Shown in pieces: positions 88 to 35,748 of a stretch of DNA of 64,000 nt. The stretch lies in NCBI RefSeq assembly GCF_040954835.1, contig NC_090704.1, forward strand, positions 35,654,979 through 35,718,978, in the 5' to 3' direction. Positions within the stretch are counted from its first letter, which is position 1; the number at the start of each line of letters is the position of its first letter. Both the position numbers and the translations under genes were made by a program. Under the pieces are notes generated by a model, which ran no database searches, had not been told where the DNA came from, and saw only the letters and a program-made list of their open reading frames with translations. This DNA comes from Lepisosteus oculatus (Eukaryota; Chordata; Actinopteri; Semionotiformes; Lepisosteidae).

Positions 88-3000
88 ATGAATTTCCAGA
101 AGGTAACTGAAACCACCCTTGTTCTCTTCTTGTGGCTCACTGTGGTTGCCTTCGCAGAAAGCACCTGTCCAGGTAAGTGCTGACACTTAACGAATGAAGT
201 CCAGTTAGGCTTAATGCAGTTCTGTGTCTAGTATACATTCTAAATCAACTAAACAGGTTTATCTTGCATGCCAAGGAGTACAAAGGTGAAGAGGCTAGAG
301 TAATCCCCTTCTGAACTGCCCTCCCGCATCACTTACAGCTCAGTTTTCCTGTTGATGTGCTCTTCTGTGTCACAGAGGTGAAGGTTGTGGGCCTGAATGA
401 CAAGGACAGACTGACCATCCTTCAGGGCTGCCCAGGACACCCAGGGATACCAGGTACTCCTGGAGCTCCAGGCATGAAGGGAGAACAAGGCCTGCCAGGC
501 CCTCAAGGTATGATCCAGCTTCTCCTCTGCGGGAGTAAATGAGGACCACAACTGTCTTCATTTTTGTGTTTTGTGCAAGTTTTAGCTTAACAAAATAGTT
601 TAACAGCTGTAGTTCAAATGCTGCATTTGCTAAAGGTCATCAGGGGAAGGTTTACAAGCTTTAGTTCTATTGACAAGCTGAGCTTGGAGCTGAGCTTACA
701 AGTTATGGCTCTTAATGTAGTTAAGGTTTGGGGTGACAAAACATAAATTTGTCAGGCCATGGCCAACAACATGAAAGGAAAACAGTATTATTTAGAGACT
801 GTTAGTCATTACTTACAAGTAGTGTTTTTTATTAGCTCATTATTTGTTTTTGATTGTTTTATAACTCAAATAGCATATCTTCACATTATTCAAAGTAGAT
901 TGACAAGACTTTCAGAAACAGTCTTTTCCTTTGCTCTACAAATATCATGCAGAAAATTAGAACTTAGAATCAGTTCCTGCTTGCAGCACTGTATTATAGA
1001 GTTGGCTATTAACATTATCATCAGTTTAAGGCCCAGTGTGTTCATACATTTGTTAATTCTGTAAAACTGGGCTTCGAACTAAAACAAGATGTATTGGCAG
1101 CCCAGGCCAGCATGAACTTCAACTGGAAAACTACCATTCGAGTGGTTAACTCTAGTCAGTTTGACACTTGTAACAGTTTCTTCGGTTGGTAATGACTGGC
1201 CTTTTCTTCTCAGCTGGATTTCTGTATTTTAGGTTTAAAAGGAATAGAAGGAGCTTTTGGGAAGATAGGTCCTGCTGGAGCCAAAGGTAAATAGGGACTG
1301 ATTTTTGTTTTCATTTTTTGTTTATATTTAGTGAAGAAGCGGGACAGATGATTATTCAATCAGTACAATTGAAAATGTGTTGGCAAAAAGATCATATTGC
1401 AGCTTATTCCATTAAAGAAATAACCACTGTATGTTTTGAAACACAACTTTAAGTAAAATAACAGATAGAATAAACTTATAAAGTAATACATCCTAATACA
1501 GCCATAAAGCCCAAAACCTAGAGGAAGCTTGTCTAATATTGAACACTTAATTTCCAGAAACACCACAAGTGTTATGCCTCAAGTTTCTATATGTAATTTA
1601 CCAGCATGTAATAATAAATATTGAATCAGGCTGTGTTTTCTTCATGTGTTGAGTCTTTCATGCATCCATTTTCTAAATGTTTCATCCAATTCAGAGCCGC
1701 AGAGGAGCCACAGCTTGTCCTGGCAAGGCACGGGCTCGAGGCAGGATTCAAAGTGGACAGGACTGTAGTCCATCACAGGGCAGACAGACACAGGCATGCA
1801 CACTCACACCAGGGCAGTTTTCCCAATTAACCTCCCAGTATGTCTTTGGACTGTGGGAGGAGATCAGAGCACCCTGAGGACGCCCATGTGAATGTGGCTA
1901 TAACAGATAAACTCCATGCAGATAACAGCTCGGGAATTTAACCTAGAACCTCAGCTCTGTGAGACAACATTGCTAACCATTGCGCAAGTGCCATCGCACT
2001 TGAGCCTTTCCTCTGTAAGAAATTGGAAAAGCTTCTTCTATCTCTAAGTCCACATTTCCTGCTAAAGGTCAAGGATGTATATAAAGTGTTTTACAGTTTT
2101 TTTCTGATTTCTCTAAAACGTCAATCTGCAAACAAAAGTTCTAGCAGAAAATTCAAGAATCCATTATAATCCACATACATTGCTCTTGAGGAAGTTCTGT
2201 TGAGGTGACAAGGTTGTTTATAGCCCTAAGTCTCAAGGATCACAACTGGGTGGCGCTAATTATCCTGACACATGAGTTAATATCTTGCCATTTATTTCTT
2301 TTTTTCAGGACAGAAAGGAGATCCAGGGAATCAAAGAGACACAGGTACATGTGAGCTGGAAATTAACCAAACTAAAATTAAAAAATACCCATCTGTAGTA
2401 TAAGGCCACAGTCAAACCAGACGTCTGTACATCATTACAAAAAAGGATGATTAAAAATCAGAAATCCATTTAAATTTGGTAGGATTGTTCCGTGTCAAAA
2501 ATAATCAAATAATCTGAGGGTGAGAGGTGTCAGACATTTGGTTTGCTCATGATAGTGCTGTGATCACAGTGTTTCTACAGTTCACACTGTGTATTGTAAA
2601 GGGAGGCATGTGTCTGTTCAGCTGCCTGTGTGATGCCATCGTTCTTCCAGGGGCTCGGAACTGTAAGGAGCTGCTGGACCAGGGGAACTACATCAGCGGC
2701 TGGTACACAGTGAGGACAGAGGGAGACAAAGACATCAGGGTGTTCTGTGACATGGAGACAGACGGGGGCGGCTGGCTTGTGAGTAACACGTTATCTTAAC
2801 ATGAAAGCAGAACAAAAATGTTTTTACCTTCAAAATGTTGTTTTACACTGATACATTGCTGTGTCTGCAGGTATTCCAGAGGAGGACAGATGGGTCAGTA
2901 GATTTTTTCAGAGACTGGGCCTCTTACAAGCGAGGGTTTGGTAACCAGCAGTCAGAGTTCTGGCTGGGGAACGACCACATTCATTCACTGACCAGCTCAG

Positions 3001-4844
3001 GTGAGTCAGGGCTGTGTCAGCACAGGAACTGCAGGAAGCAAATAAGATTATTTAATAAGTCAAAGATGTACTAAGAAAAACTAAACAAAGACATTTTTTC
3101 CATGTGTTTCAATGTGTTTCTCCTTTGTAACTGCACTTAAAAAGTCTTTAGGTTTTTTACAAATGATAATTATAGATAAAGAAACTGAAGTAGTAAAATT
3201 TTAAATATGGGCAGTTTTAATATCCCAGGTTGCTTGGGAAAAAAGTGCCTTCCATGGTGCATTTGTAAGTAAATAAATGCAAACACCTGCCTTGAGAATC
3301 TCAGTCGAATAGTGCCCTTATTGTGAGAGATCAATACATGATTTATTTTCATTCCTGCTTGTAAGGATTGTGAAAATACCTGATGCTTTTAAAGTAAAAG
3401 TAAGTTGACCTTTGTGTTCTGAAAACTGAGCACTTTGGAGCAATGAAACACATAATACATGTACAATTATGGCCATGGGAGATCCATGCCCAGGATTTAC
3501 AACAGTGGACACCAGAAGCTCTTACCCCAGTGTGACCCACCATTTGTGTTCACACTGTCTTGTGTGCCCTTTGTGATCAATGGCAGTGTCAGTGCCCTGT
3601 GCAGTCATTGTCTTTTTTCCTACGTGTTCTCTCTCTCTCCTTTTACACACACACCAGAATCATTGCTCCACAATGCTCAGGTTTTATAAGACAGTTGTTT
3701 AAAGAGGCTAACTCATTTCAAACTGCACCATGTGTACTTTCTGTACCGAACAAATTTAAATTGAGGTCAATGTATTTCGAATGGAAAAGAATGTGACCAG
3801 TTCTCTTTTGTTTTGTAGGAATTTATGAATTAAGAATTGACTTCAGGGATTTTGACAATGTTTCCACTTTTGCAAAATATGAATCCTTCAAGATTCTAGG
3901 AGAATCAGAGAAGTACAAACTCCTTGTGGGAAGATTTGAGGCCGGTAGTGCAGGTGGAGTTTCCTTTCTTTTCCCTCAAGTCACTACTGTAGATAACTGA
4001 AGTACAGCTGAAGCCCGTTACAGACAGAACAGATTACAAAGTACAGTATTTTTTATGGTCCTCCACTGTGCCACTGTGATTTCCATTCTATTGACATAGA
4101 TCCACTAAGATCCGTGCTCCAGCAGAGTTTCAGAAGATGAAGAAAAGATTTCGGATATTTTTAACTTTTCTGTGTAGAAAGCTATCGGGAATTTACATTA
4201 TGCACTTTAAAGTATTTAACTCAAGCAGTTTGCATGTTCTCTTCTTGTGTATATAGGATTTCTCTGGGCGGTCTGGTTTCTACCCACCTTGCACAGCCAT
4301 GCTGGGTATTTCAACTGGTGTCTAACGTGGTGTCTAAAGTATGGGTGGGTGTGTCCTATGTGGACTGGTGTACAATCCAGGATGCTAGGCCCCCTTTTGG
4401 CCTTTAATTTCAGAATGGGCTTCAGGAGCAAAAATTGTTTTATCCAGGGTGTGATTTGATCGTCTTATTTTGCAGTGTCAGGCTTTTTGGAAGTGAATTT
4501 TCTAACTTTATTGTCAAAGCTATTGTTTCCCAGTACTATTGTGTTCTAGTACATAAAAGACTACCTTCTAACAATTCTTTCCTTATCTGTCTTTAGGTGA
4601 TTCCCTATCAGGTCATAATAACCTGCTGTTTTCTACCAAAGATCATGACAATGATATAGATGATCGTGTCTGCACCAATTTGTACAAAGGGAGCTGGTGG
4701 TATGGAAAGTGCCATACGTCCAACCTTAATGGACTCTATCTGGGAGGAGACCATAAAAGCTTTGCTGATGGGATCAACTGGTATTCAGGAAAAGGCTATA
4801 ACTATTCCTACAAGTACTGTGATATGAAAATAAGGCCCCGCTGA
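88..4844 (+). CDS. fcn-like: Ficolin copy 1 (collagen + fibrinogen-related lectin), 8 exons
   Basis: Exons 88-172, 376-507, 1233-1286, 2309-2344, 2651-2778, 2871-3000, 3819-3953 and 4597-4844 join in frame (948 nt, 315 residues), all with GT/AG ends. Residues 1-23 form a signal peptide. Cys27 and Cys47 are the N-terminal cysteines used for multimer bonds in ficolins. Gly-X-Y repeats run about 46-97, with GKIGP at 82-86, the likely MASP-binding Lys. The FReD spans about 103-315: disulphide pairs Cys107/Cys135 and Cys259/Cys272, Ca2+ loop DHDND at 249-253, and the Cys-His of the acetyl pocket at 272-273. An extra Cys308 lies near the C-terminus. Known role of the family: secreted pattern recognition and lectin-pathway complement activation. 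This is the only copy on the + strand, and it converges on copy 2. The ficolin call is firm; the ligand is unknown. Confidence 0.95.
1650..1990 (+). repeat. SINE-like repeat in intron 3 of copy 1
   Basis: Old copy of a dispersed repeat seen several times here. It begins near CATCCATTTTCTAAATG, has a GGACTGTGGGAGGAGA core, and ends near GCTAACCATTGCGCAAG. This layout is very common in fish introns. No coding content. Confidence 0.7.
4225..4430 (-). repeat. Diverged SINE-like copy in intron 7 of copy 1
   Basis: Reads in the opposite sense to the 1650-1990 copy, with recognisable GTTTGCATGTTCTC and GGACTGGTGTACAATCCAGG blocks. Heavily decayed. Confidence 0.5.
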
Positions 4845-7276: not shown

Positions 7277-10200
7277 TCAATGAGGTCTTATTTTCATACT
7301 ACAGTACTTATAGGAATAATTGTAGCCTTTGCCAGCTTCCCAGTTGACTCCATTAGCGAAGCTTTCGTGGCTTCCTCCCAGATAGAGACCGTTAAGGTTG
7401 GAACCGTGGCACTTTCCATACCACCAGCCTCCCTTGTACATGCTGCTGCAGTTGCAGTCACAGCTATCATTGTCACGGTCTTTGGTAGAAAAGGGCAGGT
7501 TGTTATGGGATGTAAAGGAATCGCCTGAGGACAGAAAATGAGGAAATTTTGATCAAGTCACAGAGGACGTATCCTTTTGCTCCCTGAACTCTACAAGGTG
7601 AAGTTCTCTTCCTCTAAACCATCATCATAGTTGCACCAAAATATTTTTGCTTTATCATAGGCAAGCCACTTTAAAGGGTGTGGGGGCTGTATAACATTTT
7701 GTGACTGTACTGACAAAATATACAGTACGCTGTATATCTTTTTATTTGTTTCACTGATTTTACTCCGCTTTTGAAATTCCAGTTGTGAAACTCAGTAGCT
7801 TAGACAGACACTCAGGCCTAAGAGATACCTGCTTGTATTTGATGTTAAAATACTGATGCTAGTGTTTTGTCAACTGCAAAGTGAAAATTAAAAGTCACAT
7901 TGACTATGTGTACCTTGACGTTTGATTGTATTATCAGATTCATTCTATAAAAAAAAACCTGTATCTAAAGTTGCCTGATGTCCAGATATCACTGTTGTGG
8001 GCATAGACTGTATCATTAGCCAAATGTGAATGAAATTCCCCAAGTGGCAGGACATACAAATGGCTGTCTGTGTTGGATGGGCTTGAATCCATTTCTTGAC
8101 TTGGCCCTGCAATCCTGCAAGTTATGACATCATTGCTTCTCCTCCAATCATTGTTAAGTCACCTGAAAGCCACCACAGAGCTTGCATCTTAACTAGTGTG
8201 CATCAGAGTGACCATTGCCATTAATGCAGAGTGGTCTGCTACATGACTGACTGGGACTAACCAAGGGTAAAAAAACAAAATTATTGCAAACTCTATTTTA
8301 TAACAAAATCAGAGGTTTTTAGCAGTATGAAGCATTGTTCTTTCAAGACTGCAATACTGATCATACTCATGGGAAAGGAGCCACAATGAGCATTTCTCTG
8401 CATTTGATGGTAGTTAATTTATTTAACCAAAATGATGAGTTATCTTGGTGTTCTACAGAATAGATTGAAGAGATGGGGACTTACCTGCACTACCAGACTC
8501 AAAACTTCCCAGCAGAATCTTATAATTGTCAGATTCCCCCATGATCTTAAAGGACAGGTATTTTGCAAAGGTGTCCACATTATCGAAGTCCTTGAAATCT
8601 ATCCTTAATTCAAAGTTTCCTTTAAAATAAGACCAACAAATCAAACACTCAAAATCACTATAAAGGAGAACGGAGGAGAATGACTGGTTATTATTCTGGC
8701 ACTTTTGCATTCACTTATAACTGCATGTTCCAGAAGACTCAGTGTCATTTATTAAGACGATGTAAGGCTATTTTTCTTACTCTGTTGGCTAGCCTGGGCA
8801 AACAATTCTTGAAGAAGGTCTTCAGTACATTTAAGGAGGGGGAGGGGGGCAAATGTCAATTGGTAGTGTAGATGTCAATCTTCCATCCATCTTTTTTTCT
8901 AACAGCTTTATCCAGTTCAGGGCTATGGGGGCGACAGAGTCAGAGCTTATCCCAGCCAGCAGCTGGGGCAAGGCAAGGCACACTCTTGATAGGACAGCAG
9001 TTCATTGCAGGACACGCTGCAAAACCCCACTTGAACCCGGGCAGAACATACGAACTCCACGTAGGTAGCACCTGAGGTCAGGAAATGAACCTGAGGCCCC
9101 AGATATCTTAAGTTTTTACTCATTTATTATTTATTATTATTTTACTGGAACACTTCCCAATGAAGCACCTTTTGATGTCTCACTTGGGAAATCAGAGACA
9201 TCCTTTTATGAGTCTAGAACCTTTAACTACTGTTCCACACTGCTGCTACATTTTGTAGCCAAATGTTCACTAGAGAGAAAACAAATAAGTATTTCTGATG
9301 TTCATGCAATATGTTCCTACTCTTTGACGTCAATTACTCTTGTTACAGTATGTGAAATGTTTGCTACTAAAAAGACAATTAAGGTCGCTAGTATACGTTA
9401 AATGTACAATTGTCTGCTGTTCCAAATCCTGCAGTTCCTGTAGTTATAGGTTTTAAATGCATTAAAGATGTTCATTAAAATAAGAAAATAACATATTAAA
9501 TAATACAGAAAGTTGAGTGTACTGGATAATCGTGTTTTTGATTCACTTCTTGTTGGCAAAATGTTTCTCTTTGTAATATTATGCAGCTCAATTGTACCAG
9601 CTCATGCAGTTCCTCTGCTGGCAGACTCACCTGAGCTGGTCAGTGAATGAATGTGGTCGTTCCCCAGCCAGAACTCTGACTGCTGGTTACCAAACCCTCG
9701 CTTGTAAGAGGCCCAGTCTCTGAAAAAATCTACTGACCCATCCGTCCTCCTCTGGAATACCTGCAGACACAGCAATGTATCAGTGTAAAACAACATTTTG
9801 AAGGTAAAAACATTTTTGTTCTGACTTCATGTTAAGATAACGTGTTACTCACAAGCCAGCCGCCCCCGTCGGTGTCCATGTCACAGAACACCCTGATGTC
9901 TTTGTCTCCCACTGTCCTCACTGTGTACCAGCCGCTCATGTAATTCCCCTGGTCCAGCAGCTCCTTACAGTTCCGAGCCCCTGGAAAAATTATAACGTCA
10001 CGCTGGCAGCTGAACAGACAGACACATCTCCTTCCTAGTGAGGTGTTATACTTTTTTAAAAGGCAGGAATCTTCAGTTTCTGTAAAGGTGAACTGCATAA
10101 AGACCAATTTATTCATTCATTTTTGTATTTTAAAAAAGGTACTGAAGCAACCTCACAAGCATATTTCCTTTTTTCTGAATAGCATTTTCCTGCATTATAA

Positions 10201-13200
10201 CTATGGAAAAAAAAATTTCCACATTGAAGTTAAACAATTTATATGTGTTGACTTTTTCCAGACAGATGTCTTGGGATCATCTGCAAATGTCTAGGCTCAC
10301 CTTGTCCAGATTTTCCTATTTTAAATGGGTATGCAGCTTTCTGGTTTACTTTCAGCTTTGGTTGCTAGTCTCCATGTAAACAGATTTGCTCAACAATTAC
10401 CCATTTTTGTATATAAAATGTCCTGTTAGAAGGAATGGATTACACAGCTCACCTGTGCCGCTTTGAACTGATGGCTCTCCTTTCTGTCCTAAAAAATGAA
10501 AAAGACACTGTTAACTGTTAACTAGCTCATCACTGCATCAGTGTTGTGATCCTTGAATCTCAGGGCTATTAATTATTTGGCATCTCTGACTCGAGTGTCT
10601 CCACATCAGAAATAGAGCACCAAATAATATCTTCTCCTTCCTGGTGTTTTATCTCTCATTTACCTTTGTAAATTACATTTTTGCTAGTGATTCCCAAACT
10701 GTTATCTTACTTCTTTTCCTTTCTTGCCAAATGTTTCAGAATCACAGCTTCTGCTGAGAAGGTTTCTTCTTTTAAATTGTGCACGTTGGCCTCCATGAGT
10801 TTCATTGTAATGCTCGACTCCTCTCTTGGATATCACTCATTTGAATTTATTTTCTCTCTTTTACCTTTAGCTCCAGCTGGACCAATCTTTCCAAAAACTC
10901 CTGGTTCTCCTTTCATGCCTGAAATGCAGAAATACAGCTGAAAAGAAGATTATCAGTGACTGGATGTTGCTGTTACCTCTGATTAGATGGTTGGACTGAA
11001 TGTTTGAGTCCATTTTAGCTGCCATTGTGGAGGAGAAGTCAAAACATTTTCAACTCACCTTGAGGGCCTGGCAGGCCTTGTTCTCCCTTCATGCCTGGAG
11101 CTCCAGGAGTACCTGGTATCCCTGGGTGTCCTGGGCAGCCCTGAAGGATGGTCAGTCTGTCCTTGTCATTCAGGCCCACAACCTTCACCTCTGTAACACA
11201 GAAGAGTTCAACTTCATCTTGAATACTGAGTGAGAGAGCTGGAAAGAACAGCTTGAGGTAGGAAATACTTTACTTTATTTACTGTTAAATAATGTATTAC
11301 TAGTACTTGAACAAGGTCGTTAATATTTTTCCTACTTTGGGCATTTCATGAAATGCTTCAATTCAATGAATTCAATTAACTGTATGAGATACTGTGGTCT
11401 GATGATTAAGTAAAGATATCGTCCAACACTCACAGTTTTTGAAACTCTATTTTGAAATTTGAAATAGTTCATTCTCATTTTAATAATTTGACAATAAGAT
11501 CAAGAGCAACAAAACTAAATCATGGAAATGTATGATTTCAGTTAATATCCTGTTAGAATGTTTGTAGTTTTCAAAGCCACGAGGAACTGAATAATTTTGT
11601 TCCAATGAGGGAATTACGAAAGCAGACAATACCATAATTAGGCTGACCAGATTAATCATTCCTTAAAATAAGCATTACCCCAAAACTTTAAAAGCCATGA
11701 ATATACCTAAGCAGCTGGCATATTTAGAGCCACCCGAGGTATTTGTTCTTTGGCACAGCTTTAGTGAAAAGAAAAATATAGTAAATTAGGCTCACTGGAT
11801 TAAACAAATATTTAAAGAACACACAACATACACATACAACATATGCATTAGACTGTTTATAAACATCTCGAAAGCCTGCGTCCTAACCAACAAGCAAAAC
11901 CGCTGACTACTGCCAAGTATTCGAATCCTATATTATACCCAACCAGCCCAAAAATAGAGATATACCTGCTTTTTGCCTGTTCCCAATAGAATACAATCTA
12001 ATGTTAAATCTCTCTTTATAAATCCCACTTGCTTTAAAATGAATGGGAACCCACCTCCCTGTTCTAAAAAATGCATCCACTAACCTGAAGAGACTGCTTT
12101 AAACCGAGGGGTTCTTTATACGGGAAATCAGAGTTTCCTTGAAAGGACAGATTGACAAGCGACAAGCTCTCTTAACAAGTTTCAAATACTTAACTTGAAT
12201 CTGGTCTTAAAGGCTGACCTGAACAAGGACCTACCATCTGGCACTGTCTCTTCTCCTCTTCCCTTGTGTCTTCTTGTCTTTTCTCTCGTCCTTCTTTCTC
12301 TCTCTGCCTACTTGTCTGTTTTATCCTCTGTTCCTCAGCTCTTAACCTTTTACCCGGAACTTAATTAACCAGGTAAACCAGATAATTGTTTTGATCAGTG
12401 TTTCTTGGACTCCCTCCTGCTCTGCAAGCATCTCAGTTCCTTCCTTGCTTTGAAGGTCCTAAGAGCAGTAAATGTTGAGCTAACTGGATGTTTGACTATC
12501 CCCCACCTAACTGGCTGTAACAGTGTCTTCCACGTACTGCATAATAAAGAGAATTTCCAATTGTTACTATTTTTCTTTATGAATTTCATTGACACTTTTA
12601 GTTTTTCTTTCCTGTGTTATATGTTATATATATGTATGTTATTAGTGTTTCTGTTAAATTATTTTCTAGACAACTATAAAGGGTTATGGGTAAACCTTCC
12701 ACATTACAACATTACTATTAAAACCAAGCACATTTCCTATATTCAGTTAGCCCCTTTTCCCTACTTTTTTGTATAATAATTTTAGCATGATAAATAAGAA
12801 AATATATTAGATAGTGAGAACACATTTGGCAGAAAATAATAAAATGGGGATAATTCAGTGTATGATATTGAAATAAGAATACAAAGGAAATCACAGAAAG
12901 ATGATGCCTGTAGTTAAAACCTTTATTTTTTTCATTGTGGCATTCACTAAGTAGGACAAAATGATATATTGAAGTCCCTCCTTTCTTTTTGTGAAATGAC
13001 ATAAATCATTTATACAAATGACATACATCTTCGGAGAGATGTGTAGAGCCCAGATCTTAAGTTTTCTGACATTGTTAGTTATCACTGCAAATAATCATTC
13101 TAGGCAACGATGACAAGAAAGAAACACATAACATGTTTAAAATTACAAGGAGGTAATTTTAAAAATAATAGAAAACTGCAACCTTCTACCTATATAAAGA

Positions 13201-13327
13201 AATAATAATCAGAATTGCCAGTTCCTTAGCTGACAGACTTACCTGGACAGGTACGTTCTGAGCTGGTAACCACTGAGAGACACAAGGAGAGAATGAAGGT
13301 GGTTTTAGAAACTGTTTGGAGAATCAT
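7277..13327 (-). CDS. fcn-like: Ficolin copy 2, CxCxC type, 8 exons
   Basis: In transcript order the exons are 13243-13327, 11059-11190, 10865-10918, 10453-10488, 9853-9980, 9631-9760, 8485-8619 and 7277-7524 (948 nt, 315 residues), all in frame. The signal peptide starts [11 protein letters not shown] and the mature end begins near ERTCP. Exon 3 encodes [10 protein letters not shown], the candidate MASP-binding segment. Exon 4 breaks Gly-X-Y as [10 protein letters not shown]. The head keeps the FReD cysteines, but the residues after the DRDND Ca2+ loop read SCDCNC, two more Cys than the usual ficolin loop. It ends YCSMKIRPH. Intron 5 is 92 nt, as in copies 1 and 7. The 5' half and promoter resemble copy 3, while exon 8 resembles copies 7 and 8. 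Role by family: secreted sugar or acetyl-group recognition and complement activation. Confidence 0.95.
8876..9105 (+). repeat. SINE-like repeat in intron 6 of copy 2
   Basis: Same family as 1650-1990: TATCCAGTTCAGGG near the start, then GGCAAGGCACAC and CGAACTCCACGTAGG. Truncated in the middle. Confidence 0.6.
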
Positions 13328-16855: not shown

Positions 16856-19800
16856 TCACCGTGGTCTTATTTTCATATCGCTGTACTTATAGGAATAATT
16901 GTATCCTTTTCCATTGTGCCAGTTGATTCCCGTGGCAAAAGTGTCATGGTGTCCCTTCAGATACAGACCATTAAGGTTGGATTGATGGCAGCTGTTATAC
17001 CACCAGGCTCCTGCATACGTAACTGCACAGTTGTCTGAAGTATGACTATCATTGTCTTGATCTTTGGTAGAGAAGGCTTGGTTGTTGTGGTATGTCAGGG
17101 AATCTCCTGTGGACAGAAAATGTTTATAGAGATCTGAAGGGAGCCATCAGATGGCTCTTCAGTAGTGAACCACAGTGGACAATAGCCAACATTCAGGTCT
17201 ACAACATGCTTCCATTAACAAGCTCCTTCTGGTGACTAAACCCTTCATCTGAGAGCTCAATGACATGTGATGGAGGATCACTGATCACTATAATATTCTT
17301 TTTAGGGAAATCGTGCAATAAATCTGCAGCTTGCTTTTGTTGCCAACCTGAATTAAACGTTAAGGAAATTATTGTCTGTGTGAAAAGATTTTGCCAGATA
17401 TATTTCTGTGTTGGTGATATTGTGCAACGAATGCATCAGTGCACAGATTTTAAAAGGATCGTTCATATTACACAAAAATTATAAATATTTCTGAATATGC
17501 CATATGTGCTCGTTCCATATGAACCCTTATGGTATCATAAAATGATATTATAAATTTCTAGACTATTTTTGTCTGGTCTGCTTTTACTTTACTTTTATTT
17601 TTCAAACATTTTAGACTATGGTCTCATCCTAGAAAGAGATATAGTAAAGAGCTGTTAATTTGTGTTATTTTATACGTATTCAATTTCTGTAATTTGTTGG
17701 TGTCACTGATAATGAGGAGATGTGTCTGGTATTGATTGTCTTGACAGTTTTATGTTGTCATACATGATATTATTTTCAGCCACTTTTACACATTATCCCA
17801 TTAACGTATTTTAAACATATTCTACATGACCTAAAATACCGTACGTGCCTACATTGCGTTCTCCTTACACATCACCAAACCAGGCAGTGAAAAAAAAAAA
17901 GACAACAAAACAAAAAAAAAGAGTGCAAGAAAATGCATGTACTGTAAGGTAAGGTTGCAACTGTGAAATTTGTAGCCGTTCTCGTGTATTTTTTGTCTGT
18001 TTTTTGTTTAATTTGAACATTTGAGGAATAAATGTCCAATGAACTAGCTAATAAAGTGAGCACTGTATAATTGTACAATGTACAATGTATTGAACCTTTC
18101 ATGAGTCTCCTGTAAATTGGAAGGTGATATAGAAACTATTTGGCCTTCCACTGTGCTAGAATACATCTGAAACAAGAATTTCTTAAGGAATTTCACAACA
18201 AAAACTTGTCTAGCAAATGAAAACTAGTAACTGTTCAGGTGAAGTTGTAGCATTTTAAATGTTGCTTATGTGTAATGAAAATGATGAAAAATCATAATAT
18301 TACCTAGATATGTTTCAAGACATATTAAAGTAACCAACGAATAATTGATACCTTCATTTACTCTGCACAATTTTAGTCTATGTAATTAAATATTTTAATT
18401 AATTCTGAAATATTTACACCAATTACATCTTAAGAGGTCAGTGGATGAACGCATAAAAGTGGGAACTTACCTGCGCTACCATCCACGAACTTCCCCAGAA
18501 GGATCTTGTACTTTTCTGATTCTCCCAGAATTTTAAAGGACTGGTATTTTGCAAAAGAACCAACATTATCAAAATCCTTGAAGTCTATCCTTAATTCAAA
18601 GCTCCCTTTAATACAAGACAGATAAAACAAACTTCAGAAAATTAATCACAAGTGTTGTTCTATATTGTTGCCCATTCGTTTTTATTGCATATCATCTCAG
18701 ACATTATTTCTGTTTATTTCTGAAATGTAACATTCCTTTCTTGCTGAACATAGCAAAAACTAATAGTGGAAAACTATTAGAGAAACAATAATGGGAAACA
18801 TTTTACTGCAACAGTGCTTTTCTGAAAGGAACTGTTCTTCATATATTTCTTACCAGAGATGAAGAGCTGCTACTGTATATTGAAATCCAGGTTTATTACA
18901 ACAGATCAGACTTATACTGGTTTACTGGGTGTGTGGTTTAAGGCACTAACTTTGGAATTACATAGCCGACTAACTTTGCTAAGACAGGAAATTTGCCTGA
19001 GCAGCGCCATTTAAAAAAAAAAAGCCTCTGATTGTCAGAAGTGGAGTTATCAGTGGGCTGCTCTAAGTTAAGTCCTTATCTTTTTAAATTCCACTGCAAA
19101 AACATCTGCTTTTTTGTTTTTGTTACTCGCTTTTTGTTATTCTTTCTCAGACTCAGTCCTCAGGTTTTACTCTTTTGAAGATGAAGATCATATCTGCTTC
19201 ATAGTAAGTTGATAAAGACAATATGTTTGAGGTCTTGAATAAAATTAAAGCAGATCCAACCAGAAGAAGACTCTTCTTCTGTGAATATTTAAAATACAAA
19301 TTTAATGTAATTAAAATCATGTCAGAAGTCGTGATTCCTACTTTGAAGGTGGGAACAGGTGGATTGATTCCTATTAACAGCTGCTCAAACAAGAATCGGA
19401 GAGCAACTTTTTAATAAGTAAAGAATATTGAACCCAGTTTCATTTGCTTCATCTACCTTCAGTAGATAACTTACCTTTAGAAACTGTGGAATGAGCAAGA
19501 AAGACATGTTAAAAAGGATAAATCATTAAATCAAATTAAGCTAGAAGATACAAATTCATCTCAGTGATTAAAAATTCAGTTTCAATAAAAACCAGAGACC
19601 AAACACCAGTGGACGTGAAGACTCACCTGAGGCAGTCAGAGCATGAATATTGTCATTCCCCAACCAGAAATCTGTTTGCTGGTTACCAAACCCTCTCTTG
19701 TAGGCATTCCAGTCTCGGTAGAAATCTACAGATCCATCCATTCGCCTCTGGATCACCTGCCACCATAATTTGTTATTTGTTCCTATTTTTCTTTCCATCA

Positions 19801-22800
19801 GATTCTAATGACATTTATTCAATACAGGGCTGCTGGGGAACTGAAACCTATCCCAGTTAGCAACGGGCACGAGGCAGGGTACACCCTGTACATGATTATC
19901 ACACGGCACACACTACCACCAGAGACAGTTTTCCTAGAAATTAATTTGCCTCTTTTTGTTACAGCTATTTTTGTGTTCCATTGTCTTTGGATTGTGGGAG
20001 GACACAGGAGCACCCAGAGGAAACTCACATGAACACAGGGAGAATATATAAACCCCACACAGATACAGTAGCACCCCAGGTCCCGTATTGAATCCAGGGT
20101 CCCAGCACTGTCCAAATCTCAAGACTAGTCTACTGAAAAGCTCTCACACTTTTGCCATGAAATAGCACCATGAGACAAAACAAGAATACTGCACCTAGCA
20201 CCCCAGGAATTGGGCCCTGGGCTATGCCACTATGCTGCTAGCTAAATGTATTAAATACCTAATAAATGAGAGACCAGCATTTGTGTTTTTAACAATGCAA
20301 ATGTACTGCCTTCTGACACATAATCATGACAACTCATGACAACATACTGTACCATATCTTTCAAAGAGATGTCAAAGACACAGACATAATGCCCTCTGTA
20401 GATATTGGAGCAGTGAAGTTGAAATGGATGTTTTTGCTATGTACTCAGGCAAGTTGGATTTGAGATGAAAAGATATATATGTGGCTAAAGTATAGATTGT
20501 CACATTTGTTTCTGAGTATTTCTGTGCTAACATGGTGTACCGTTTTAGAATAATAGCACTTGTTTTTAAGTATTGGGACAATTCGCTTCCAGGTATTTCT
20601 TATTGGTAAGTTGATTTGAGTTGCACACACATAAAAGCTGTAAATGTGTAGTGTTGGATTGAACCTCTGCTCTTCCCTTTGGTGTCTGCCTTTAGAGTCA
20701 GCAGCCCTAAACCAAGAAGACTAGAAAATGGTCTAGGAAAGCAAACCAATGGGTGGGAAGTTTGAGGGTGTATCTGTGTGTATTGCAAGTGCATCTTTCA
20801 GCACATTAATTTAAACACATTTACTTATGTGCATCCAATACTGTTTTGAGAAGTGGACTAATCTGTCCAGAAATGAGCTGCTACACATTCACATGGGTTC
20901 ACTCACAAGCCAGCCGCCCCCGTCTGTCTCCATGTCACAGAAAACACTGATGTCTTTGTCTCCCACTGTCCTCACTGTGTACCAGCCGCTGATGTAGTTC
21001 CCCTGGTCCAGCAGCTCCTTACAGTTCCGAGCGCCTGGAAGAACGATGACGTCATGCTGGCAGCTGAGCAGACAGACACATCTCTTTCCTAATGAGGTGT
21101 TATACTTTTCAACAGACAGGAAATGAAGCACTTTTTGTTCAATCTTCAGTTTCCATAAATGTGTGTTGTAATTCATTCATTCCCTGTTGTATTTGAAAAA
21201 GTTAATGAAGCAAACTATTTTCTCACAAGCTTGTTTTCTGTAATTTTGTTTTGTTAATCTAATTTTCCTGCATCATAACTGTTGCAAAACTAGCAAGTTT
21301 TATTTTTCAGCCCAATTTTTATAGTATCGATAGATATCATCTGTAAACTTCTAGGCTAGAGGTTGGTCTCAACTTGTCTAATTTTGCCAATGTTAAACAA
21401 ATGTGAAGAATGATTTCTGACCAGTTTTCTGGCTTACTTTCTGCTTTGGTTGTTAGTTTCCACGTAAACAGACTTGCTCAACAAATACCCATTTTTGTTT
21501 ACATTTTCCTGTTTGAAAGAAAGGATTACACAGCTCACCTGTGCTGCTTTGAACTGATGGCTCTCCTTTCTGTCCTAAAAAATGAAAAAGACACTGTTAA
21601 CTGTTAACTAGCTCATCACTGCATCAGTGTTGTGTTCCTTGAATCTCAGGGCTATTGAATTTGTGACATCTCTGACTTGAGTGTCTCCACATCAGAAAAA
21701 GAGCACCAAATAATATCTTCTCCTTCCTGGTGTTTTACCTCTCACTCATCTTTGTAAATTACTTTTTTGATAGTGATTCCCAAACTGTTATCTTAATTCT
21801 TTTCCTTCCCTGCCAAATGTTTCAGCATCACAACTTATGCTAAGAAGGTTTCTTCTTTTAAATTGTGCACGTCTGCCTCCATGTTCTTCATTGTAGTGCC
21901 TGACTCCCCTCTTGGATATCACTCATTTGAATTTATTTTCTCTCTTTTACCTTTAGCTCCAGCTGGACCAATCTTTCCAAAAACTCCTGGTTCTCCTTTC
22001 ATGCCTGAAATGCAGAAATACAGCTGAAAAGAAGGTTATCAGTGACTGGATGTTGCCTTACCACTGATTAGATGGTTGGACTGAATGTTTGAGCCCATTT
22101 TAGCTGCCATTTCGGAGGAGAAGTCATAACATCTTTGAACCATACAGCTGCATACAGCTGAGAGGTGTCCTATTTCTGTCTATTTTTAGTTGCTATGACT
22201 TGGGGAGAAGTTAGAACAGCTATCACTTACCTCGAGGGCCTTCTTCTCCCTTCATGCCTGGAGCTCCAGGAGCACCTGGTATCCCTGGGTGTCCTGGGCA
22301 GCCCTGAAGGATGGTCAGCCTGTCCTTGTCATTCAGGCCCACAACCTTCACCTCTGTAACACAGAAGAACTCAACTTCACCTTGAGCACTGGGTGAGAGA
22401 GCTGGAAGAAGCAGCTGCAGGTAGGAGACATTCTACTTCTTTCGCCGTTTAAGAGTGTATTACTAGTAGATCATCAAGGTAATTTATATTTTACCTACTC
22501 TAGACATTTGATGAAATGGCTAATAAAGGGAGTTCAGTTAACCGGATGAGACATGACTGTGTCTGTTAAAATGGCATATCTTATGAAGACATTAGCCAAC
22601 ACACACAGCACCTTCCTTACATGAGAAATTGAAAAATATTGTTACAAATAGGGGGTTACAATATACAGAATACCAGATATAGCATGGGCAGATTAATCAA
22701 TGCTTAAAATAATTATTCATAACCCCCAAATTGTAAAGCTTTTGCCATGAACATACCTGAGTGGTTTCCAATACCATATTATGCCTAAATGTCGCAATAA

Positions 22801-24002
22801 TAGAGATAAACCTGTTTCTGCCCAAACAGAATGCAGCATAATGTTACATCTCCTGCTACAAAATGAATGTGAACCTATTTTCCTTCTAAAAATGCATCCA
22901 CTAAACCGGAGAGACTGTTTTTAATCGAGGGATTCTTTATACAGGAAATTAGAGTTTCCTAGAAACAACAAAATGACAAACTTTCTTAATAAGATTCAAA
23001 TATTTAACTTGAATCTGGTCTTAAAGGCTGATCAGAACAAGGACCTACCATCTGGCACTGTCTCTTCTCCTCTTGCGTTGTGTCTTGTCTTTTCTCTCGT
23101 TCTTCTTTCTCTCTGCCTACCTGCCTGTTTTATCCTCTGTTCCTTGTTTCCTCTTAACCATTTACCCAGAACTTAATTAAACAAGGTGATGATTCCTATG
23201 ATCAATGTGTCTTGGTTTGCCTTATACTCAGCAAACACCTCTATTGCTTCCTTGCCTTGAATGTCCCAAGAACAACAAGTGTTGACACTAGCTTGTTTCA
23301 TGTTTTTAAAGCATAAGTCTTCATGGTCTTTTTTGGGAATTTAAATTTTCAGTTTTTCTAGCCTGTGTTGTGTTATGCTGATTTCATAGTTAACTGTAAA
23401 GGGATGCCATAACACCTTCCACATTACAACACAACTGTTAAACACTTCCCTAACACATTTTCTCATAGTCTGCTTTGAAAAGCTCCTTTTCTATACTTTT
23501 TGTGTGATATTTATAGCATGATAAACATGAATGTAAATTAGATAGAGAACAAATTTGGCTGAAAATGATAAAACAGAGACAATACAGTGTATAACGCGAA
23601 GAAAACAAAGGAACAAAGGAAATAACAGGAAGGTGCTGCCTATAGTAGAAACCTTTAATATTTGTGGTCTTCACTAAGTACAACAAAATGCCTCATTTGT
23701 TTTTTAAAAATCCTTCGGAGGGATGTGTAGAGCCCAGATCTTACGTTTTGCTTTTTTTCTAACACTGTTAGTTATCACAGAAAATAATAATTCTAGACAG
23801 CATTGACAAGAAAGAAAGTGACAATGAAGTAGGACACTAAATAGAAAACTGCCACCTTCTTTTCTATATAAAGACAATGATCATCAGAATTGCCAGTTCA
23901 TTAGATGACAGACTTACCTGGACAGGTGCTTTCTGTGCTGGTAACCACTGTGAGACACAAGCAGATAATGAAGGAGGTTTTGGAAACCGTTTGGAGAATC
24001 AT
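16856..24002 (-). CDS. fcn-like: Ficolin copy 3, canonical head, 8 exons
   Basis: Exons in transcript order: 23918-24002, 22231-22353, 21951-22004, 21539-21574, 20907-21034, 19627-19756, 18471-18605 and 16856-17106 (942 nt, 313 residues). Exon 2 is 9 nt shorter than in copies 1, 2, 7 and 8, removing one Gly-X-Y triplet (GEEGPRG). Exon 8 is one codon longer. Its loop [14 protein letters not shown], then GAWWYNSCH, is the closest here to mammalian ficolins. It lacks both the CxCxC cluster and the C-terminal extra Cys (YSDMKIRPR). The exon 6 peptide also differs ([17 protein letters not shown]). GKIGP is kept in exon 3. Promoter and exons 1-4 are close to copy 2, so the gene looks like a mosaic. 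It is the best candidate for a conventional ficolin ligand site. Confidence 0.95.
19800..20235 (+). repeat. SINE-like repeat in intron 5 of copy 3
   Basis: Contains CCTATCCCAGTTAGCAAC, GAGGCAGGGTACACCCTG and TTTGGATTGTGGGAGGAC blocks in the order of the common fish SINE-like family. An extra insert lies in its middle. It explains much of this 1,150-nt intron. Confidence 0.65.
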
Positions 24003-27524: not shown

Positions 27525-30500
27525 TCAGCGGGGTCTTATTTTCATATCGCAGTACTTATAGGAATACTTTTGGCCTTTCCCAGTCAACCAGTTGATCCCA
27601 TTAGCATGACTTTCATGGCTTCCTCCCAGATAGAGACCATTGAGATTGGCCTGGTGACACTTCCCATACCACCAGCCACCCTTGAACATAGTGCTGCAGC
27701 TGTTATCATGGCTGTCATTGTCCCGATCCTTGGCTGAAAAGGGCATGCTGTTATGATATGAGAAGGAATCACCTGAGGACAGAATACAAGTACTTCATTA
27801 ATAACAAACTTTGTATTCCGCAACAAATCTGTTTGACCCCAACAAAGCAATCAATAAAGTGAAGACCACAGTCCTACTATTGAATCAGTTACAACAGTGT
27901 TACTTTGAGATTTGAGGTACTGCCCAATACTACATTGAATGTGAGATAGATTCTGCTCAAGTCAGCTTTTCCTGGCTTCTATCCCAAAGCAATAGGTGGA
28001 TACTGTCAGAGATTTCTGAATTGTTGAGATTTGTCTCAGGTTGTTTCTTTAGGTATTTAAGAGTAGTGTTCTGAAATACAGTATGTTGTGATGTGAGAGA
28101 GGGAGAAATTAGTCTCCCAACACATATTATTGCTGCAAAAGCAGAGGAGGGAATAAGATCTACAAATCAACAGATGAAGCTCATACAGTTTATACATGGT
28201 TACATAAAAATTGTGAGATATTACTTGCTGTAGGGAATGACTAAATGAACTAATGATCAGAATAGTTAAACCTACTGTAGTTATAAGCACTTTGCATGCA
28301 GGACTTCAAACAATCTCTATCTCAAAGCTGCCCTGTATAAAAAAGCACATACGCTATATTTTTAATTGCAAGGCTTATTGCACTTTCAACAAATAATTTT
28401 AAACAAGACATCTAATGTAACTTGCATGCTTCCACTTTTGAATGGATTCAATTCTGGATCTAGGGAGCTAATTTGCATGTGATTTGCATGCTCTCCCGGT
28501 GTTCTCTGGGGGCTCCAGTTTCTTCTCACAGTCCAAAGCCATTCTGTTAGGTTAAATGGCTGCTGGGAAAATTAACTTTGCTGTGAGTGTGTGCATGTCT
28601 GTGTCTGTCTGCGCTGTGATAGACTGATGACCTGCCTTGCACCCTTTGCTTGCCAGCATAGGCTCTGGCTCCCCCGTGACCCTGTATTGGATGAAGCAGT
28701 TAGAAAAGGATGGATGCATATATACTCTGCCCTCAAATTAACTGCCTATTAATCAGACATGGTGGAATGTTTGCCTTTAGACAGGCAGAGACAAATTATA
28801 ATTGACTGTAATTTAATGTTTTAGTCTGACACCAAGACTGTCTAGTCAACTATGAACTGGAAATAATAGTGACTAAATGGTCAATTCCAAATTGGGAATA
28901 CAAAGAAATATATAAATATATAAGGTGCAGTATTAATACAGCGGGTGAAAATGCAACAAGACCTTACCTGCACTTCCAGCCTCAAAATTCCCCAGCAGAA
29001 GTTTGTAATTCTCCGATTCCCCAGTAACCAGAAAATTACTGTATTTTGCAAAGGTGGCCGCATTGTCAAAATCCTTGAAGTCTATCCTTAATTCATAATC
29101 CCCTTCAAAAGAAAACAAGCAAGACTGCACCTCAGGACATGCATTGCAGATGGTGCTCCTGCAAACCTATGATAAACAGGGCAGACTCGTTTTTATCAAA
29201 AATGCTTTTTGCATAACTTTAAAGCACAATAGGAACAGTTTCCTGTCATTGTACATGTTAATAGTTCCAAATGATTGATCAAAGACAAGTTTTTTTCCTT
29301 TGTCTCTGGCAGCATCTGAAGAGAAGTCAGAAAAGTCCAGTTTGTCCAGTCCAGTTTCTTTCTCTGTGCTGGAGGAACAGAATGGCATTCCATACAACCA
29401 TTGTTCACAGTATTGATAAAATCACTCTGAATGATCACCTTGATGATACAATGGAAAACATAAATGTATAGTTTTGAAACTGAAAGTAGCTGGATGCCAA
29501 TTATTTTAAATAAATTGCATGCAGTAACATTTTGAGGATTATGCTAATTAAGATAATTAAACTAATTTATAGACTAATTCATACTGCCTAATTACTATAT
29601 AACCTCTTTCCGTAAATCTAGTTATCAACTCACAAAGCATCGATCGAAGGAAGGCAAAACTCACCTGAGCTGGTCAGTGAATGAATGTGGTCGTTCCCCA
29701 GCCAGAATTCTGACTGCTGGTTACCAAACCCTCGCTTGTAAGAGGCCCAGTCTCTGTAAAAATCAACTGACCCATCCATCCTTCTCTGGAATACCTGCAA
29801 ATATCCCGGGAAGCAATGAGAAATATGCATAAACTTCTGTGTTGCCTGTAATCCATTTATGTAACAATAGTGTTTAATTATCAATACACATACAGTAGAT
29901 GTAGCTGCTCAGATGGAGACAGAGACTATTTGTAATTGAAGCAATCTGTACATTAGTAACAAAAAGCTATATCTGCTGTGAAGCATTCTGCTATTGCTAC
30001 AGTAAGTATATGTTTTCAAGATAAAAGACGTGAAACATTACTTTCTTCTTTCTTTGTAAAGCTCAAGCAATCAGTGTTTTAGATCTTTGTATTTATGTTC
30101 TGATAATCATAACCAGAGTTACCACTGAGGAGACCATTTGGCCAATCTATCTTATTTGATAGTTAGAAGCTAATTGATATCCACTGTTTTTTTGAAGAAG
30201 CCACGTTTCTGCAGCCTATATGGCGTCGGAAAGTAATTTTTTGGCTACTCACAAGCCAGCCGCCCCCGTCAGTGTCCATGTCACAGAACACCCTGATGTC
30301 TTTGTCTCCCACTGTCCTCACTGTGTACCAGCCGCTGATGTAGTTCCCCTGGTCCAGCAGCTCCTTACAGTTCCGAGCCCCTGGAAGAACGATAACGTCA
30401 CGCTGGCAGCTGAACAGACACATGCCTCCCTTTGCCAGTGTGCAAAGTGCAATCTTGCAGATGGAGACAGAATCTATAGTACATCACTTCTTTTTCTCTT

Positions 30501-32647
30501 CTAATAAACAAAAAAATATGTGTCTTCAACATTTTTCCCATTTGAATTTTCAATTCAGCATCTGATGTGAGGGTGTTCTACATTTATCTCTTTTATTCAG
30601 TGTTCTTTTATTCAAAACTATTGAATTTATTTATTTTCCAGTGTTAAACATTATAAAGGTTTTGTAACAGAGATTTATTTGATTTCTTGGGATATGTTTC
30701 TGACTATTACATCCTGAGTGATACACATTCTCTACATTTAGTTATTCCTGAGGGTGAATTTTATCAATTTGTGGGATTTTGGCTTTCCATTTTCAATGGT
30801 AGTTAGGCAAAATCCAGTAAGTAATAGCTTGTTTTCGGTAGTATGTCAAACGCTCACCTTTGCTTCTTTGATCACCTGGTTCTCCCTTCTGTCCTTCAAA
30901 AGGAATAATAGACAAGTCATTACCTCAAAACTTTTAACACTATAAGCTTATTTTATCATTTGAAAGCTATATAATCTAGGGGCAGTTTATCTTACCTACC
31001 TACATGTATTGTTTGTTATATTTCCTAATGGCATTCAAAAGTTTGTTTGTTTTTACAAGAATTACATTAGCAAAGTCACTCCACAACAGAATGTTTTCTC
31101 TTTTAATTTCTACATTAAAACCTCCTTGCTCCTTTCATTAAATGTGCCTGCCATTCTTCTTCACTGTATGTGATTTGTATTTGAAAATTAGGATCAATTT
31201 CCCAATGCTTACCTTTGTAAAAACAAATAATCACTATTTACCTTTGCTTCCTGCTGGACCAATCTTCCCAAATGCTCCTGGCTCTCCCGCCACACCTAAA
31301 ATGTAGCAATACAGGTGAGGAGGCAGCCTCTATCATCAGTGATGAAGAGGTCTTTGGGTTGAACCATACAGCTGCATACAGCTGAGAGGTGTCCTATTTC
31401 TGTCTATTTATAGTTGCTATGACTTGGGGAGACGTTAGAACAGCTATCACTTACCTCGAGGGCCTTCTCCTCCCTTCATGCCTGGAGCTCCAGGAGCACC
31501 TGGTATCCCCGGGTGTCCTGGGCAGCCCTGAAGGATGGTCAGTCTGTCCTTGTCATTCAGGCCCACAACCTTCAGCTCTGCAATACAAAAGAGCGCAGCT
31601 TCAACAGGAAAACTGGACAAGAGAGGTGGAGGTTTCACATTATGTTTGGGGTCAAACTCTTTATCCATTGCTGGAGAGTCTGTTGTCATGAGCCAAAGGA
31701 CTAGGGCTTCTGTTCTTCTATGGACAGTGGGTGTGGATCCAATGCTTTAATCAAGGTTTTTTGTATTTGAATGGAGGAGATTCTGCCATCTGTCGCACTG
31801 CGATAATTACATAGAATATAATTAAATGCAGTAGACAGTCCAGAACTTTTTCACAGAGAGAGAATCTTACATGAGGCTCATCAGGCAGGAGATTTTCTCA
31901 GACTTTAGAGATGATCCTATTGGGAGGTAAGGGGTTTTCAAAAGATGGAAGAGTTTGTAATACCTCGTTCTTCTTCCTTTAATCCTTACAATTTTTCCCC
32001 TAGCTTGCTTGCTTTCAGGCAAGCAAGGCAAATATTCTGAGATTTCAGAAAATAGTTGCCATACACTTATTTTTATAGTTCAGCCTTCCTGTACACCATC
32101 CTTTCTTGTTTGTTACTAGTCTCCGTGTTTAGATGGCCATAAAAGTAGTTAAAGGATGATGAGAAAATATGACTCCTTATATGTCACTTTGCTCCAGGCA
32201 TAGTAAATCTGCTTCAACAGGCAGATTAGAAACCTGATGTTCATCTGATTTCCACGCTTTCTAAGCACACCTACAGGTAATCTGCTACAGTACCTAAAAC
32301 CTTTCCATAAAATTGTTCACTGATTATTTAATTGAAATGGCAGACTTATGAAAATAGAAAAAGCAGCAGAAAATGACACAAAGTAGTACGCAGGGCACAA
32401 GTAGCAAAGCCAATAACAGGAAAAGACCTTTTTAAATAGAGGTGCAACATGTACAGTGTAATCTGAAACACAAGAAATATACAACAGCACTATCTGCACA
32501 TCTCTATACTGTAAAAACACTGTAAAGGTTTTTCTAGTGTTTCTAGTGAGTCTGATATTTACCTGGACAGGTGTTTTCTCCTCCAGAAGCCACAGTGACA
32601 AACATAGAGACAATGAAGATGGAACCAGAGACTTTGTTAGGCGCCAT
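27525..32647 (-). CDS. fcn-like: Ficolin copy 4, 8 exons
   Basis: Exons in transcript order: 32563-32647, 31455-31577, 31242-31295, 30858-30893, 30253-30380, 29665-29794, 28968-29102 and 27525-27772 (939 nt, 312 residues). The signal peptide is the most divergent ([16 protein letters not shown]). Exon 2 is 123 nt, one Gly-X-Y triplet short as in copy 3, and its intron flank is nearly the same as copy 3 (about 22136-22230 against 31365-31454). Exon 3 reads [19 protein letters not shown], keeping the candidate MASP Lys. The exon 8 loop is [15 protein letters not shown], with no CxCxC, then WWYGKCHQ; it ends YCDMKIRPR with the extra Cys. Family role: secreted lectin of the complement lectin pathway. 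All exons are open. Confidence 0.95.
28440..28725 (-). repeat. SINE-like repeat in intron 7 of copy 4
   Basis: Reverse-sense copy of the common family: GCATGCTCTCCCGGTGTTC, then TCTCACAGTCCAAAGCC, then GATGACCTGCCTTGCACCC, ending near GGATGGATGCAT. Confidence 0.7.
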
Positions 32648-32720
32648 TCTGTTGCTGATCATTCAGATGTCCCTCAGTGTCCACCTCTTCTCTCAGAGTG
32701 GCTTGTTAGGGGAAAAGGCT

Positions 32721-34568: not shown

Positions 34569-35691
34569 TCAAGTGGGTCGTATTTTCATATCACAGTACT
34601 TATAGGAATACTTATGGCCTTTTCCAGACAACCAGTTGATTCCATTGGCATGTGTCTCATGACTCCCTCCCAGATAGAGCCCGTTCAGATTTGAGTGATG
34701 GCAGTCCCCATACCACCAACTTCCTTGAAAAATTTCAGCACAGCTCCTGTCGTAAGTGTCATGGTCACGGTCTTTGGTAGAAAAGGGCCTTGAGTTATGA
34801 TACGATAGGGAATCACCTGGAGATAGAAAATAAATAAGTTTTAACTTGTGGCAGCAGGGGTCTTTACTGAGGTGAATACTTACTTTCTCTCACTGACCAG
34901 CAGCCTTATGAGCGGAGTGGAAAATTAAAGACGGAAGTATAAGGAAAACATGCAGAAATACCAGGCATTACACTATGGACCCAGGGGATGAATAATTTAG
35001 TTTCATATTAGGTATTAATCACTGTGTACTTCTATTCATAACCACAAACCACAAATATGACAGGTTTATGGAAGTATAGTGTGCAAATTAAAATTTAACG
35101 CCAACATAGTGGACCAATAACATCTTAAAGTGAAAAACAAATAATTGCAATTTTGTGGCCTTGCAACTTTGAGGTTTTGTGCAAGTGGACTTATTGAATG
35201 TTTAGAATTCAGTTGGAAAGAATATTTACCCATTCTCAGTCTCAGTACTTTAAGAGAGGTAATCAGTACCATCACAAACTGTATGTTAAAACATTAGATA
35301 TTATTGTATTATCAGGCTGCTCTGTCTTGTTAAAACCAAATTGGAAATCAATAGTAATATAAACATGTGAATGCATCATACTGTACATGCGCAATTGAAT
35401 GGTCAAAAAGAATTTGAGACTAGGTCCCAAATCAGGTTTCGAAAATGGGCAAAATATAATTCGTCTGGCTTCTTACATCGCTCTTGCAAGAAATAAGTCA
35501 GAAATTTGAACCTACCTGCACTTCCACCTTGAAATCCCCCTAGCACAAGTTTGTAATTCTCTGATTCCCCCATAATCATGAAGGACTGGTATTTTGCAAA
35601 AGTAGACACATTGTCAAAATCCTTGAAGTCTATCCTTAATTCATTATTCCCTTAAAAAATAGACACACAAGGATATAGGTTAGAAGCTAAG

Positions 35692-35748
<57 letters not shown>

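Follow-up and report, generated by a model that had tools for sequence, protein, structure and literature searches.

A putative angiopoietin-type cysteine pair at the Ca2+ loop of clustered ficolins in Lepisosteus oculatus

Introduction

A group of ficolin genes within 64,000 nucleotides of Lepisosteus oculatus DNA (the whole stretch analysed, hereafter the window) raises the question why some of its members carry two additional cysteines behind the DND motif of the Ca2+ loop, and how these residues might act on a lectin domain whose acetyl pocket is connected to that loop. A sequence-only reading had proposed that the cysteines could rewire the loop disulphide, bind a metal or reshape the acetyl pocket. 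Here, the gene models of the cluster, the loops of related genes in the same genome and structural precedents from other fibrinogen-related proteins are brought together to weigh these possibilities, along with the origin of the motif.

Ficolin genes of the window

Eight ficolin copies are found, the first on the plus strand and copies 2 to 8 on the minus strand (Table 1). In seven of them (copies 1, 2, 3, 4, 5, 7 and 8), seven exons with AG acceptor and GT donor sites join into an open frame, which has 301-306 residues in copies 1, 3, 4, 5, 7 and 8 and is equally open in copy 2. Of copy 6 there are only remains, with further exon pieces near 44773 and 45554. With seven coding exons per gene, the motif lies in the seventh and last exon, which had been labelled exon 8.

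Table 1. Positions of ficolin genes, exons and CxCxC motifs in the window
Feature	Position	Strand	Remarks
Copy 1 gene	88..4844	+	IDDRVC, no CxCxC, 303 aa
Copy 2 gene	7277..13327	-	open reading frame without interruption
Copy 2 exons	13243-13327, 11059-11190, 10865-10918, 9853-9980, 9631-9760, 8485-8619, 7277-7524	-	
Copy 2 last exon	7277..7524	-	end of fibrinogen-related domain, CxCxC; AG acceptor, open to stop
Copy 2 motif	7448..7480	-	Ca2+ loop with CxCxC; DND loop, then SCDCNC
Copy 3 gene	16856..24002	-	SHTSDNC, neither CxCxC nor the YKYC cysteine, 301 aa
Copy 4 gene	27525..32662	-	SHDNSC, no CxCxC, 305 aa
Copy 5 gene	34569..41714	-	TYDRSC, no CxCxC, 306 aa
Pseudogene copy 6 last exon	about 42590..42839	-	in-frame TGA and one-base insertion
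Pseudogene copy 6 motif	42763..42795	-	SCDCTC, not SCDCNC
Copy 7 gene	48015..54744	-	303 aa
Copy 7 exons	54660-54744, 53478-53609, 52974-53027, 50852-50979, 50630-50759, 48941-49075, 48015-48262	-	
Copy 7 last exon	48015-48262	-	AG acceptor, frame open to stop
Copy 7 motif	48186..48218	-	SCDCNC
Copy 8 gene	57448..63388	-	303 aa
Copy 8 exons	63304-63388, 62051-62182, 61578-61631, 60192-60319, 59746-59875, 58176-58310, 57448-57695	-	
Copy 8 last exon	57448-57695	-	AG acceptor, frame open to stop
Copy 8 motif	57619..57651	-	VCDCNC

All seven intact copies encode a signal peptide, as predicted by a hydrophobicity rule, and an N-terminal cysteine, with the first exon ending between P and E of TCPE. 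Their seven translations contain 14-16 G-x-y collagen triplets per copy, and the predicted collagen regions all include GKxGP, the putative MASP-binding motif of ficolins, preceded by F or Y rather than P. In copy 8, the sole copy scanned, Pfam Collagen scores 36.7 bits (cut-off 27.2) and Fibrinogen_C 247.2 bits; its fibrinogen-related domain matches ficolin-1 with 312.8 bits versus 185.5 bits for angiopoietin-2, and ficolins fill the first 12 places among its PDB matches. Judged by their predicted products, copies 2, 7 and 8 are otherwise ficolins with intact gene models. An NCBIfam scan was set aside: apart from collagen-like adhesins far below their cut-offs, its sole hit was the model of a bacterial fibrinogen-like domain (41.6 bits). 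Relatives of the seven window domains were also sought in viral contigs, where 49 stretches matched the search pattern and none was a relative.

The CxCxC motif and its distribution in the genome

The pattern DxDxDxCxCxC has four matches in the window, all on the minus strand, and none in any of 100 dinucleotide-preserving shuffles. As the sequence-only reading had noted, copies 2, 7 and 8 and pseudogene 6 carry two added cysteines next to the Ca2+ loop, ahead of the one that takes part in the loop disulphide; the spelling SCDCNC or VCDCNC given there fits the three intact copies, and not the pseudogene. CxCxC is absent from copies 1, 3, 4 and 5, of which copy 3 (SHTSDNC) has a spacer longer by one residue. 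The length of the spacer in the motif equals that in human ficolin-1 (DNDVSSSNC) and ficolin-2 (DNDLNTGNC). Since neither VSSSNC nor LNTGNC or LNNGNC contains an extra cysteine, the claim that usual ficolins possess a Cys-free spacer holds for ficolin-1 and ficolin-2, the human loops compared. CxCxC is thus a real and, for a ficolin, unusual feature.

The species' own genome (1.20 Gb, 813 contigs) yielded at least 96 matches to the copy 8 domain and at least 32 to the last exon of copy 2. Altogether, 36 fibrinogen-type loops were read, eight of them from the window copies and the other 28 from the rest of the genome; those of L018, L019, L020 and L022 were read by eye across two exons. CxCxC occurs in 8 of the 36, namely in window copies 2, 6, 7 and 8 and in four angiopoietin-type genes with the loops NCICKC (contig C10), NCLCKC (C16), KCICKC (C17) and KCSCKC (C11). 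The suggested search of fish ficolins for the motif, conducted in this one fish genome, returned it, among the loops read, from the four window copies and otherwise from angiopoietin-type genes. The gene on C11 (L034, C11:1559500-1565500) is the fourth of its type besides those on C10, C16 and C17. A further ficolin on C9 (L009), 0.77 Mb away, reads SYGGGNC, a ficolin-like gene on C27 (L010) reads ASDSNC, the loop of L036 has lost its aspartates, and no loop was seen in the L041 and L042 stretches. A partial match at C9:36478146 lies outside the set of loops read. The same region varies differently in the fibrinogen-type L021 (C28, 1111-1605), whose other extra cysteines form KCVDDC in the loop and NCC after the Trp, and extra loop cysteines also occur in L037 and L038.

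According to an excerpt of PMC6795676, no ficolin has been identified in any cartilaginous fish. Titles and abstract openings of the open-licence literature name no ficolin with CxCxC, which is no proof of its absence from print. Two further observations in the same genome point to a probable non-teleost ray-finned fish: a rhodopsin match consists of a single exon with a 359-residue open frame (79% identity) and has an intron-bearing relative 6.6 Mb away on the same contig, a mark of ray-finned fishes, and Hox-type homeobox matches lie mainly in four clusters (C1, C10, C12 and C31), without the teleost duplication.

Role of the added cysteines

A plausible role for the two residues is suggested by their location. 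In FIBCD1, Asp393 and Asp395 bind the Ca2+ ion together with two water molecules and the main-chain carbonyls of residues Ser397 and Asn399, and the Cys401-Cys414 disulphide joins this site to the acetyl pocket (PMC3908420, excerpt). In the alignment, the two carbonyl positions, four and two residues before Cys401, coincide with the new cysteines of copies 2, 7 and 8, which correspond to M-ficolin positions 266 and 268 when counted back from the loop cysteine. Both Ca2+ aspartates, Cys283 and His284 are kept in these copies. Human angiopoietin-1 (DNDNCMCKC) and angiopoietin-2 (DNDKCICKC) display the identical DND-x-C-x-C-x-C spacing, and the consulted part of PMC5928061, a paper on Angptl3 and Angptl4, describes their third cysteine pair (C435-C437 in Ang1, C433-C435 in Ang2) as part of the Ca2+ site, for which it suggests a structural role. 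By this analogy, the loop of copies 2, 7 and 8 is of the angiopoietin type, from which we infer the CxC bond in the ficolins. Given the same spacing and the position of the angiopoietin pair at the Ca2+ site, the motif most likely represents a CxC disulphide that staples the Ca2+ loop, rather than an additional site for a metal or a change in the pairing of the loop disulphide. The excerpt of PMC5928061 also ascribes three conserved disulphides to ficolins, a remark that was set aside as the aligned human ficolin-1 domain shows four cysteines. No mention of the CxC pair was found in the accessible portion of PMC4609988. An AlphaFold2 model of copy 8, based on an alignment of the seven window domains, was unusable for geometry (pLDDT 33.4, pTM 0.28).

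The cysteine inventory of the domain bears on the alternatives. The domain of copy 3 has four cysteines, those of copies 1, 4 and 5 have five each, and those of copies 2, 7 and 8 have seven. The extra cysteine of copies 1, 2, 4, 5, 7 and 8 belongs to YKYC near the C terminus, at a position occupied by Ser in human ficolin-1 and -2 and two residues before a Met of the final strand, and is probably buried. It is missing from copy 3 and the C9 ficolin, and renders the number of domain cysteines odd. As YKYC is present without CxC in copies 1, 4 and 5, its cysteine is independent of the motif.

Conceivably, one of the new cysteines could pair with Cys270, Cys283 or the YKYC cysteine and thereby alter both the loop and the acetyl pocket. 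Because the count of seven in copies 2, 7 and 8 is odd, it does not prescribe the pairing and leaves room for such arrangements. Nevertheless, rewiring as envisaged by the sequence-only reading is unlikely: in angiopoietin-1 and -2, cysteines of the same spacing form a third pair of their own (PMC5928061, excerpt), none of the seven intact copies has lost either partner of the Cys270-Cys283 bond, and in copies 1, 4 and 5 CxC is not the partner of YKYC. The odd number would also be compatible with a covalent link between subunits or to partner proteins via the CxC or YKYC cysteines, and ficolins do oligomerise via disulphides, though N-terminal ones (PMC7858579, excerpt). This is very improbable, as the corresponding angiopoietin cysteines pair inside the loop (PMC5928061, excerpt) and the Ca2+ ion would keep both carbonyls side by side. 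A thiolate site for Zn, Cu or Fe, which CxCxC could in principle build together with a nearby His, is hardly credible in a protein with a predicted signal peptide for secretion, whose third motif cysteine is that of the loop disulphide and whose angiopoietin equivalent is a cysteine pair belonging to the existing Ca2+ site (PMC5928061, excerpt).

Among the pocket residues listed for M-ficolin in an excerpt of PMC3088710, Cys283, His284 and Ala301 are kept in 7/7 intact copies. Positions 300/312 (M-ficolin numbering) read F/Y in copies 1, 2 and 3, H/Q in copy 4, H/H in copy 5, Y/A in copy 7 and Y/H in copy 8. This variation suggests that the paralogues may bind different ligands. The motif itself might reshape the pocket, as the sequence-only reading had considered, though indirectly, through the retained cysteine pair that corresponds to Cys401-Cys414 of FIBCD1.

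Origin of the CxC pair

When the last-exon tree is given the C9 gene as its root, one group (100/100) unites copies 1, 2, 4, 5, 6, 7 and 8 and leaves copy 3 outside, and the CxC copies nest among those without the motif. Copies 2, 6, 7 and 8 group together with weak support (SH-aLRT 9.6, UFBoot 37), within which 6+7+8 (90.5/77) and 6+7 (96.6/99) are better resolved. Last-exon identity amounts to 84-87% among copies 2, 7 and 8 and to at most 79% between these and copies 1, 3, 4 and 5. At the positions of the motif, a single base change separates a Cys codon from the Tyr codons found in copy 5 and L009, and likewise from the Arg codon found in copy 1.

The presence of four angiopoietin-type genes with the motif in the genome could point to a transfer into the ficolins by gene conversion. 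Such a transfer might find support in the 15-base spacer, where copies 2, 7 and 8 match these genes at 7-10/15 bases versus 2-6/15 in copies 1, 4 and 5. Yet, the rise is confined to the spacer with its two added Cys codons and does not extend into the flanks, where likeness to the four genes is 16-17/27 and 9-11/24 bases for copies 2, 7 and 8 and 13-18/27 and 8-16/24 for copies 1, 4 and 5 (copy 3 left out). Moreover, the cysteines are encoded by TGT-TGC-TGC versus TGC-TGC-TGT in all four angiopoietin-type genes, so that the first and third codons differ. The exon structures appear to differ as well: as deduced from the reading frames, an exon of the four angiopoietin-type genes apparently ends about seven codons past the motif, while the last exon of the ficolins continues past it without a boundary. 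Transfer from an angiopoietin gene is hence most improbable. Taken together, the closer likeness to ficolin-1 than to angiopoietin-2, flanks that are no more angiopoietin-like than those of other copies and the differing Cys codons make an independent, convergent gain of CxC within the ficolin cluster the best-supported origin.

Exchange between the copies and selection

The copies seem to have exchanged sequence among themselves. All 21 pairs share 93.7-98.4% identity in the exon encoding GWYT; for the following exon, the values are 90.7-99.2% where copy 3 is not involved (15 pairs) and 76.7-79.1% where it is (six pairs). For copies 2, 7 and 8, synonymous distances are 0.08-0.17 in the GWYT exon and 0.04-0.08 in the next, 0.82 or too large to be estimated in the penultimate exon, and 0.47-0.61 in the last exon, where dN/dS is 0.17-0.20. 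Introns align mostly in short pieces; the exceptions are copies 2 and 3 in their 5' halves and, in copies 1, 2 and 7, the short intron that separates the GWYT exon from its successor. In the latter three, the exons near 2651-3000, 9631-9980 and 50630-50979 including the intron between them are 94-98% identical, and the last two exons are far more diverged, which looks like a recent exchange of an exon cassette. Likewise, copies 2 and 3 share 82% identity over 1.2 kb of their 5' halves including introns (9847-11054 and 20901-22140), with strongly diverged 3' halves, so that copy 2 looks like a mosaic.

The motif itself lies inside a 54-base run that is identical in copies 2, 7 and 8 (p = 5e-5 when all variable sites are shuffled, 0.049 with synonymous sites only). 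The longest run of unchanged degenerate codons is 14 at the motif versus 3-5 in four other trios of copies. Short-tract conversion would fit this run, and so would constraint; lying within it, selection on the cysteines is inseparable from conversion. In the 200 bases of the upstream intron, similarity z-scores are 8.3 (copies 6-7), 5.8 (2-6), 5.0 (2-8), 4.6 (6-8), 3.5 (2-7) and 2.2 (7-8), and also reach 5.5 in a pair with a non-CxC member (2-5). This retained similarity counts against an exchange of the exon alone. A rough neutral estimate of the probability that the two Cys codons stay unchanged among copies 2, 7 and 8 (P about 0.016, tree length 0.78) presupposes that no conversion took place and is not relied on.

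Proposed explanation

Copies 2, 7 and 8 are, with good probability, ordinary secreted ficolins that acquired a CxC pair of the angiopoietin type in their Ca2+ loop, independently of the angiopoietins. The encoded proteins would comprise a signal peptide, an N-terminal cysteine, about 15 collagen triplets and a fibrinogen-related domain. Here, the new cysteines would replace residues 266 and 268, with the positions taken from the alignment and the role as backbone-carbonyl ligands from FIBCD1. As in angiopoietin-1 and -2, they would most likely be joined to one another, so that both the Cys270-Cys283 loop disulphide and the Ca2+ ion would be preserved and the Ca2+ loop presumably stiffened. Through Cys270-Cys283, which joins this loop to the acetyl pocket, the staple could reduce the pocket's dependence on Ca2+ or conformation. 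The CxC pair would have arisen within the ficolin cluster, and the tract containing it may later have passed among the copies by gene conversion. Retention of the added cysteines in pseudogene 6 counts against this explanation.

A more far-reaching and decidedly unlikely extension is that CxC acts as a redox- or Ca2+-sensitive allosteric staple, in which opening and closing of the ring would alter how Ca2+ is held and thus switch acetyl-ligand binding via Cys270-Cys283 and its cis peptide bond. Spread of the tract by gene conversion, with positions 300/312 diverging, could then provide one shared switch for different ligands.

Comparison with known systems

With human FCN1 and FCN2, the window proteins share the domain order, the Ca2+ aspartates, Cys270-Cys283, His284 and the best PDB matches, but the human proteins have no cysteine at 266 or 268. 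In FIBCD1 and tachylectin-5A, a single disulphide links a homologous Ca2+ site with the acetyl pocket (PMC3908420, excerpt), but the residues that supply the two carbonyls in FIBCD1 are Ser397 and Asn399. The closest parallel to the motif is offered by angiopoietin-1 and -2, with the same DND-x-C-x-C-x-C spacing and window cysteines at the positions of the Ca2+ carbonyl ligands. In contrast to the angiopoietins, which have a coiled-coil stalk, no collagen and read DACGPSNLNG at the pocket, the window proteins have a collagen stalk and keep the pocket His284; copy 8 scores 127 bits better against ficolin-1 than against angiopoietin-2, and the window ficolins lack the exon boundary that appears to follow the motif in angiopoietin-type genes. 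If correct, the proposed explanation would mean that an immune lectin acquired the Ca2+-loop staple of the angiopoietins by convergence. As paralogues with and without CxC coexist in one cluster, the effect of the staple on Ca2+ holding and ligand binding is testable. By analogy, the motif can be explained by a known structural element of the angiopoietins.
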